From Candidatus Sulfotelmatobacter kueseliae (GTDB taxonomy: Bacteria > Acidobacteriota > Terriglobia > Terriglobales > Acidobacteriaceae): 64,000 nucleotides of DNA. This document shows positions 27,274 through 27,840 of this stretch, in pieces. The stretch spans positions 1-64,000 of the forward strand of contig OMOD01000142.1 in NCBI GenBank assembly GCA_900290255.1, in the 5' to 3' direction. The position numbers were made by a program, and so were the translations under genes. The notes under the pieces are model-generated. The model ran no database searches. It was not told the DNA's origin and was given only the letters and a program-made list of their open reading frames with translations. Every line of letters begins with the position of its first letter. The stretch's first letter is position 1.

Positions 27274-27840
27274 TCAGTTCTTCATCTTTGGCCGTGCGCA
27301 CGCGTCCACGATCTTCTTTGGATCAATCGCATCCCGGTCGACCTGCTCTTCCATGATCTTTCCATCCTTGCCGATCAGGAAGTTCACCCGGCGCGGTGCC
27401 TGATATTCGTCTTTGTAGATTCCGTACTGGTGGGTGACTTTGCCGCCCCAGTCGCTCAGCAAGGGGAAGGTCACTCCAATCTGGTCGGCGAAAGCCTTAT
27501 TGGCGAAGGCACTATCCATGCTCACACCCAGGACCTGGGTGTCGGCTGCTTCCAGCGTTTTCAGATTCTGCTGGAAGTTTTTCATTTGCTGCGTTCAACC
27601 CCCGGTGAAGGCGAAGATATAAAACGCCAGCACGACGTTCTTCTTGCCGCGGTAGTCACTCAGCTTCACTTCTTTCTCGTCGTTGCCGTCGAAGTATTTC
27701 AAGGTGAAGTCCGGCGCCGCATCACCGACCTTTGGCATACTCGGGGCCTCCTTCTTCCCCTGTGCGAACAGCGCGGCGGACGATGTCAGCAAGCCGGCCA
27801 ACAACACGGCCGCCACAAGTTCGGAGCGTCTTCTATGCAT
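27274..27840 (-). CDS. Secreted peroxiredoxin (AhpC/TSA-like), probable selenoprotein with in-frame TGA at the peroxidatic position
   Basis: Reads as one 188-residue frame interrupted only by TGA at 27597-27595 (codon 82). A signal peptide ([21 protein letters not shown]) precedes the thioredoxin fold: [10 protein letters not shown], then [23 protein letters not shown], then [20 protein letters not shown], and [11 protein letters not shown]. In homologues the residue after FTGG is the peroxidatic Cys of the TxxC motif, so the TGA replaces exactly the catalytic residue (T79-G-G-X82). A SECIS-like hairpin follows at once (27549-27577), so selenocysteine insertion is the best reading. A disabling Cys-to-stop mutation is the alternative. 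A Cys near the C-terminus (DACARP) could be a resolving thiol. GGGAGGGG precedes the ATG. It would reduce peroxides outside the cytoplasm. Confidence 0.8.
27549..27577 (-). promoter_or_regulatory. Bacterial SECIS-like hairpin downstream of the TGA
   Basis: On the minus strand CTTCCAGC (27577-27570) and GCTGGAAG (27556-27549) form a perfect 8-bp stem with a 13-nt apical loop, AGAATCTGAAAAC. The loop begins 25 nt after the TGA at 27597-27595. This fits the published description of bacterial SECIS elements: loop 16-37 nt after UGA, 3-14 nt long, with a G within its first two bases, and a stem of 4-16 bp. SelB would bind here to deliver selenocysteyl-tRNA. Confidence 0.7.

Follow-up and report, generated by a model that had tools for sequence, protein, structure and literature searches.

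Introduction

Peroxiredoxins that carry selenocysteine (Sec) in a T/SxxU motif were already counted in a survey of 2006, at a time when four selenoproteins of three families were recorded for the Acidobacteria, and the organisms named there for the Sec peroxiredoxins are, in the passages concerned, mostly anaerobic (PMC1794560). In later reviews, peroxiredoxins with TxxU appear under PF00578 or COG1225 (PMC13188914, PMC9312934), and the peroxiredoxins are described, in the section available, as acting on intracellular H2O2 (PMC13188914). Upregulation of a Sec peroxiredoxin, PrxU, has been described for Sulfobacillus thermotolerans (PMC7409299), and a paper from 2025 mentions three known selenoprotein genes in one Acidobacteriota genome, which are unnamed in the relevant passage (PMC12013277). 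Within the open-licence literature, which leaves most subscription journals outside, no report was found of an exported or periplasmic Sec peroxiredoxin, nor of selenocysteine in Sulfotelmatobacter.

Here we analyse a peroxiredoxin (Prx) gene of Candidatus Sulfotelmatobacter kueseliae, located in a stretch of 64,000 nucleotides that is referred to below as the window. An initial annotation, made from the sequence alone, had proposed that the gene encodes a selenoprotein of a kind already known, and TxxU peroxiredoxins are in fact a listed selenoprotein family (PMC1794560, PMC13188914). The gene very probably encodes an exported peroxiredoxin with selenocysteine as peroxidatic residue.

Results

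A peroxiredoxin frame with TGA at the catalytic position

A frame of 189 codons on the minus strand, with TGA at codon 82 as its sole break, was confirmed as initially annotated, the 189 codons corresponding to 188 residues and a stop codon (Table 1). The gene begins with ATG and comprises 81 sense codons ahead of the in-frame TGA, 106 sense codons after it and a terminal TGA (27276-27274). Sequence and alignment also agree with the earlier placement of the TGA directly after FTGG, at the position of the peroxidatic Cys in TxxC. Peroxiredoxin sequence lies on both sides of this codon, as had been claimed: the read-through protein reached 125.3 bits with Pfam AhpC-TSA (PF00578, cut-off 26) and the part 3' of the TGA alone reached 68.1 bits. 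A mechanical gene call returned two fragments, in keeping with the prediction that ordinary gene finding would split the gene. The observation of a peroxiredoxin frame with TGA at the catalytic Cys is confirmed, and selenocysteine is almost certainly the active-site residue specified by codon 82.

Table 1. Features of the peroxiredoxin gene, with positions in the window.
Feature	Position	Strand	Evidence
Prx gene, complete selenoprotein peroxiredoxin frame, 188 residues and stop (TGA)	27274..27840	minus	frame, Pfam score, genus orthologues
Putative signal peptide, residues 1-26, LFA|Q	27763..27840	minus	11-residue hydropathy maximum 2.95; cleavage site inferred
Ile75, at the Pro position of the Prx motif PxxxTxxC/U	27616..27618	minus	alignment
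Thr79 of TxxU	27604..27606	minus	T in 73 of 74 rows, S in 1
Codon 82 (TGA) at the peroxidatic Cys column, taken to encode selenocysteine	27595..27597	minus	sequence, genus orthologues, Cys homologues
Candidate SECIS stem-loop, 8-bp stem, 13-nt apical loop, G at loop position 2	27549..27577	minus	folding, pair counts, recoding controls
Arg151, invariant	27388..27390	minus	R in 74 of 74 rows
Cys181, sole cysteine of the protein and candidate resolving residue	27298..27300	minus	C at this column in 63 of 74 rows

Selenocysteine machinery and tRNA-Sec halves

The host genome assembly amounts to 5.39 Mb in 198 contigs (96.1% complete, 8.46% estimated contamination). The initial annotation had proposed a search of this genome for selA, selB, selD and tRNA-Sec, and all three protein-coding genes are present. 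SelA (526.6 bits) and SelB (375.6 bits, full length) are uninterrupted, and SelD (C155:14928-15911, L026) contains an in-frame TGA of its own. The Prx protein was used to search 101 genomes, consisting of the host, 44 others of its genus and further members of the family, order and class. SelA was above the cut-off in 87 of them. A TGA-containing Prx match of more than 100 bits and SelA occurred together in 59 genomes, Prx alone in 2, SelA alone in 28 and neither in 12 (Fisher p = 2e-4, calculated over related and hence non-independent genomes). The two genomes with Prx and without SelA (G031 and G032) are 78% and 82% complete.

For tRNA-Sec the outcome was divided: an intact gene was not found in the host assembly, and two halves were found on different contigs. 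When the assembly was searched with RF01852, the best 8 of 13 matches were other tRNAs according to ARAGORN and the other five scored lower; ARAGORN also detected no tRNA-Sec in the 19, 18 and 19 kb around selA, selB and selD, respectively. With the tRNA-Sec of a relative as query, the 3' two-thirds were located at C9:369-435 (L228; 67 of 98 nt, 93%), with unrelated sequence on the 5' side, and a pattern search with one mismatch located the 5' half at C150:45089-45127 (L239), followed by unrelated sequence. Both halves break at the anticodon loop. A split, trans-spliced tRNA-Sec assembled from the two halves was considered and rejected, as by eye the flanks contain no complementary stretches.

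Such an arrangement would also be seen if the Prx gene were a selenoprotein gene by descent, but the tRNA-Sec of this host had been split by insertion or rearrangement, in which case UGA would terminate translation and the enzyme would not be made. The unrelated sequence at both breaks favours this explanation, as do the chromosome-type genes that flank both halves and the lack of an integrase among the eight neighbouring proteins scanned. It is nevertheless improbable, as the SelA, SelB, SelD and Prx frames are free of decay apart from the catalytic TGAs of SelD and Prx, and as the distribution of tRNA-Sec in the genus points elsewhere. A tRNA-Sec match of at least 64 bits was obtained in 36 of the 45 genus genomes, and a strong match was absent from nine (the host, G000, and G001, G008, G009, G016, G019, G028, G035 and G039), with the same outcome when seven of the nine were searched again with fuller scoring. 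All nine have selA above the cut-off, which fits a systematic assembly loss at a recombination-prone site. One of them (G016) retains a 25-nt 3' remnant of tRNA-Sec, and at that search sensitivity none was detected in the seven others besides the host. Furthermore, in two relatives (L094 in G020 and L101 in G022) a phage-integrase gene lies just 5' of a tRNA-Sec whose 5' half is unlike the genus norm, suggesting elements that insert at the anticodon loop of tRNA-Sec. The likeliest reading is that tRNA-Sec serves as an integration site and that the assembly lacks an intact copy which the strain possesses. In a published benchmark, the selenoprotein-containing genomes without a predicted tRNA-Sec were, in the part reporting them, all cases in which the gene was missing from the assembly (PMC5330540).

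Among relatives, ARAGORN identified 45 tRNA-Sec genes in 43 of the 50 loci scanned, and the anticodon was UCA in all of them. Two complete tRNA-Sec genes are present on a single contig in L098 (G034), about 12 kb apart, and in L087 (G079), about 3.6 kb apart.

The TGA is conserved and its flanks are constrained

Intact orthologues (at least 279.8 bits) were found in 32 of the 45 genus genomes, the host included, and each of the 32 has exactly one TGA and no other stop. In one further genome (G042) the orthologue lies in two contig pieces, one of which contains the TGA. The other 12 genus genomes have weaker matches only; for 10 of these the best among the matches listed scored 71.7-99.1 bits and is stop-free. 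Over the whole set, 61 of 101 genomes, with G042 excluded from the count, contain a match of more than 100 bits in which a single TGA is the sole stop.

For comparison of residues, 74 proteins, that of the window included, were aligned. Preference was given to high-scoring and TGA-bearing matches, few of the stop-free paralogues that score near 100 bits were taken in, and one Cys paralogue beside L145 was left out. At the column of codon 82, TGA occurs in 71, TGT in 2 and TGC in 1, proportions that do not constitute an unbiased rate because TGA-bearing matches were preferentially chosen. A pattern scan of named genomes, built from this alignment, yielded at least 535 confirmed candidates, of which the best 80 were kept. 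Among these best 80 of at least 535 loci, codon 82 is TGA in 68, TGC in 9 and TGT in 3. In the alignment check that the initial annotation had proposed, the catalytic column of the homologues holds either Cys (3 of 74 and 12 of 80) or TGA. By their record titles, the same best 80 belong mostly to Acidobacteriota, with TGA forms also in Planctomycetota, Verrucomicrobiota, Sulfobacillus, Litchfieldia and others, and the nearest named relatives among them ('Candidatus Sulfotelmatobacter' and 'Terriglobia bacterium') are 82-86% identical. On a quick tree of 154 rows, the catalytic residue must have switched between Sec and Cys at least 10 times, and 7 or more changes are needed at the Pro column. 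In L093 (G099) and L121 (G085), two Sec peroxiredoxin genes lie in tandem, each of them with a catalytic TGA.

Selection was estimated by comparing the window gene with 31 orthologues, the 32 genes consisting of 30 loci from the protein search together with L104 and L108. Upstream of the TGA (45 codons, 22 of 31 pairs usable) the median dN/dS was 0.08, and downstream of it (105 codons, 30 of 31 pairs usable) the median was 0.05. In all 496 pairs of the set taken together, differences gather at third codon positions on both sides of the TGA, and no second stop occurs within the 105 codons after it in any of the 32 genes. By these measures both flanks of the TGA are under strong purifying selection. 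An ordinary Cys peroxiredoxin altered by a sequencing error or a fresh nonsense mutation might come to mind, given that TGA is one base away from TGC and TGT and that Cys homologues exist, but the retention of one TGA throughout the genus orthologues together with selection on both of its sides excludes a sequencing error or a fresh pseudogene, and this explanation, already refuted by conservation, has next to no probability. On this comparative evidence the Prx gene is a genuine selenoprotein gene by descent.

Equally negligible is a reading of UGA as Trp or a general reassignment in the lineage, under which the frame would likewise be open, because the terminal stop of the 32 genus genes is TGA in 22, the window gene among them (TAA in 6, TAG in 4), so that UGA is not globally reassigned, and because all 15 relatives seen without TGA at the catalytic column have Cys there and none has Trp. 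UAG as a Sec codon was also considered, as several matches contain one TAG, and was rejected after examination of the loci of G079, G094, G076, G052 and G099. The loci of G079, G094, G076 and G052 align with Cys at the catalytic position, and their alignments show no stop other than one upstream of the domain (L090); in the second of the two tandem genes of G099 the TAG is near the C-terminus; moreover, all tRNA-Sec anticodons seen are UCA.

A putative signal peptide, a missing proline and a C-terminal cysteine

The signal peptide proposed in the initial annotation is supported by a hydropathy heuristic and is regarded here as putative. With the same heuristic, and with start codons assigned by a simple rule, a hydrophobic N-terminal stretch was present in 68 of the 74 proteins; four of the six that lack it (L142-L145) form a group that looks cytoplasmic. 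The enzyme, predicted to destroy peroxides, is probably exported.

With the Sec-containing peroxiredoxin family (TxxU, PF00578) the window protein has in common the AhpC/TSA domain, the TxxU motif, which was rightly recognized in the initial annotation, and UGA at the peroxidatic position; it also has the invariant Arg, which we take to be the active-site Arg of peroxiredoxins. It differs from that family in its putative signal peptide, in Ile at the Pro position of PxxxTxxU, in the C-terminal Cys181 and in its score of 88.7 bits with the NCBIfam PrxU equivalog NF040737, which is below the cut-off of 270. A PrxU-type enzyme was reportedly described from Eubacterium acidaminophilum by Sohling et al. 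in 2001. The best match by sequence to a solved structure is the mycobacterial Rv2238c (PDB 1xvw and others; residues 35-165, E 3e-20), presumably AhpE, a Cys enzyme. This match covers the peroxiredoxin part only, and the N-terminal signal and the C-terminal end with Cys181 lie outside it.

The Pro of PxxxTxxC/U has been called highly conserved (PMC13188914, in the section on this motif). In the alignment of 74 proteins a residue other than Pro occupies this column in 62 of the 71 rows with Sec and in 1 of the 3 with Cys; for the best 80 of at least 535 named loci the corresponding numbers are 37 of 68 (Sec) and 2 of 12 (Cys). An association of Sec with loss of this Pro was considered and dropped: raw counts over the 154 rows are 99 for Sec/non-Pro, 40 for Sec/Pro, 12 for Cys/Pro and 3 for Cys/non-Pro, but they contain only 5 independent pairs on supported branches. 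As Cys181 is the only Cys of the protein and its column is widely occupied by Cys, we infer a Sec-Cys catalytic pair.

A candidate SECIS element with a large loop

The bSECIS model, as given in a figure legend (PMC13188914, Fig. 2), has a loop of 3-9 nt, a stem of 4-16 bp, a G in the first two loop positions, a spacing of 16-37 and an energy of -7.5 or lower. In the window gene a hairpin occupies the region 18-46 nt after the UGA, with 25 nt between the UGA and the loop; its energy is -12.1 kcal/mol (z -2.18) and 6 of 200 shuffles were as good. Stem length, loop G, spacing and energy agree with the model, and the hairpin departs from it in loop size only, with 13 nt instead of 3-9 nt. No Rfam family reached its gathering score anywhere in the 64-kb window.

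The 74 rows were divided into 39 of the window family (type B), 22 small-loop rows of other families (type A), a rest of 10 TGA rows and 3 Cys rows, a grouping that is not blind because it was made after viewing the folds of all rows. In type A, the more distant relatives, a 7-bp stem carries a 3-nt loop, GGC in most, and 89.0% of cells are paired. Compensatory changes occur in 4 of its 7 pairs, a number reached by 2 of 500 shuffles, and the outermost pair is open in 11 of 22 rows. A loop of at most 9 nt on a stem of at least 5 bp is found in all 22 rows, as against 21% of protein-preserving recodings (judged by stem, loop, G and spacing alone). The prediction that RNAalifold itself makes for the type A alignment has 4 pairs at -0.43 kcal/mol and is weaker than the count on the named structure.

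The type B alignment contains 38 rows, L114 being left out as the codon is missing there. It has 93.9% of cells paired, which none of 500 shuffles matched, and a single covarying pair, C-G to G-C in 5 rows, a number reached by 377 of 500 shuffles. Only 2 of 39 rows have a loop of at most 9 nt, fewer than the recodings (17%), whereas a loop of at most 14 nt on a stem of at least 6 bp is present in 34 of 39 rows as against 20% of recodings (maximum 31%). Energies relative to recodings have a mean z of -1.47 and are negative in 38 of 39 rows; in individual rows the signal is weak, with a median p of 0.08 by energy and 0.19 by pairs, and it is weak for the window gene alone under synonymous recoding (energy p about 0.07; all 8 pairs in 21.6% of recodings). 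RNAalifold predicts 6 of the 8 pairs at -8.24 for this alignment. Among 13 rows scanned, the lowest values (to -1.65) belong to segments that start 0-48 nt after the UGA, with a further dip (-1.59) about 200 nt downstream. The stem-loop of the Prx gene is supported as a property of the group. In the rest group 6 of 10 rows pass each hairpin test, and among the Cys rows 1 of 3 passes the test with loops up to 9 nt and 2 of 3 the one with loops up to 14 nt, so that the latter are no clean negative control.

The selD gene of the host has a canonical bSECIS hairpin, GUCCAGC[GGC]GCUGGAC, with a 7-bp stem and the GGC loop 20 nt after its UGA. It has UCCAGC/GCUGGA in common with the stem of the window Prx hairpin, which may be chance. 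A tentative interpretation, which we hold to be possible though somewhat short of probable, is that the SECIS architecture has changed within one orthologous gene, from or to a short stem closed by a 3-nt loop (GGC as a rule) in most of the more distant relatives of the class, and a near-invariant UCCAG/CUGGA stem whose loop measures about 13 nt in the window family. On this interpretation, given the GGC loop of selD in the same genome, both architectures would need to be recognized by a single SelB, and the exported Sec peroxiredoxin would function without the active-site Pro.

Discussion

The interpretation of the gene as a selenoprotein gene, put forward in the initial annotation, is supported. 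In the proposed mechanism, the downstream stem-loop would direct SelB and Sec-tRNA(Sec) to UGA codon 82, the ribosome would insert Sec there, and translation would terminate at the final codon of the gene, a second UGA. In the exported enzyme, the selenolate would attack hydroperoxides outside the cytoplasm and be converted to the selenenic acid, which would probably be resolved by the conserved Cys181; re-reduction could be provided by an extracytoplasmic thiol partner.

The kind of enzyme is already known, and it is the putative export, the missing Pro, the C-terminal Cys, the large-loop SECIS candidate and the split tRNA-Sec that are worth following. The loss of the active-site Pro prompts the question of whether a constraint on Cys peroxiredoxins is eased when the chemistry relies on Sec. 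Searches based on SECIS elements could overlook genes of this type, whose large-loop stem does not fit the published model, and the difference between the Prx and SelD loops in one genome makes the recognition rules of SelB directly testable. This group of Sec peroxiredoxins looks exported and is widespread in Acidobacteriota genomes, in contrast to the mostly anaerobic and intracellular picture given by the literature in the passages cited above.
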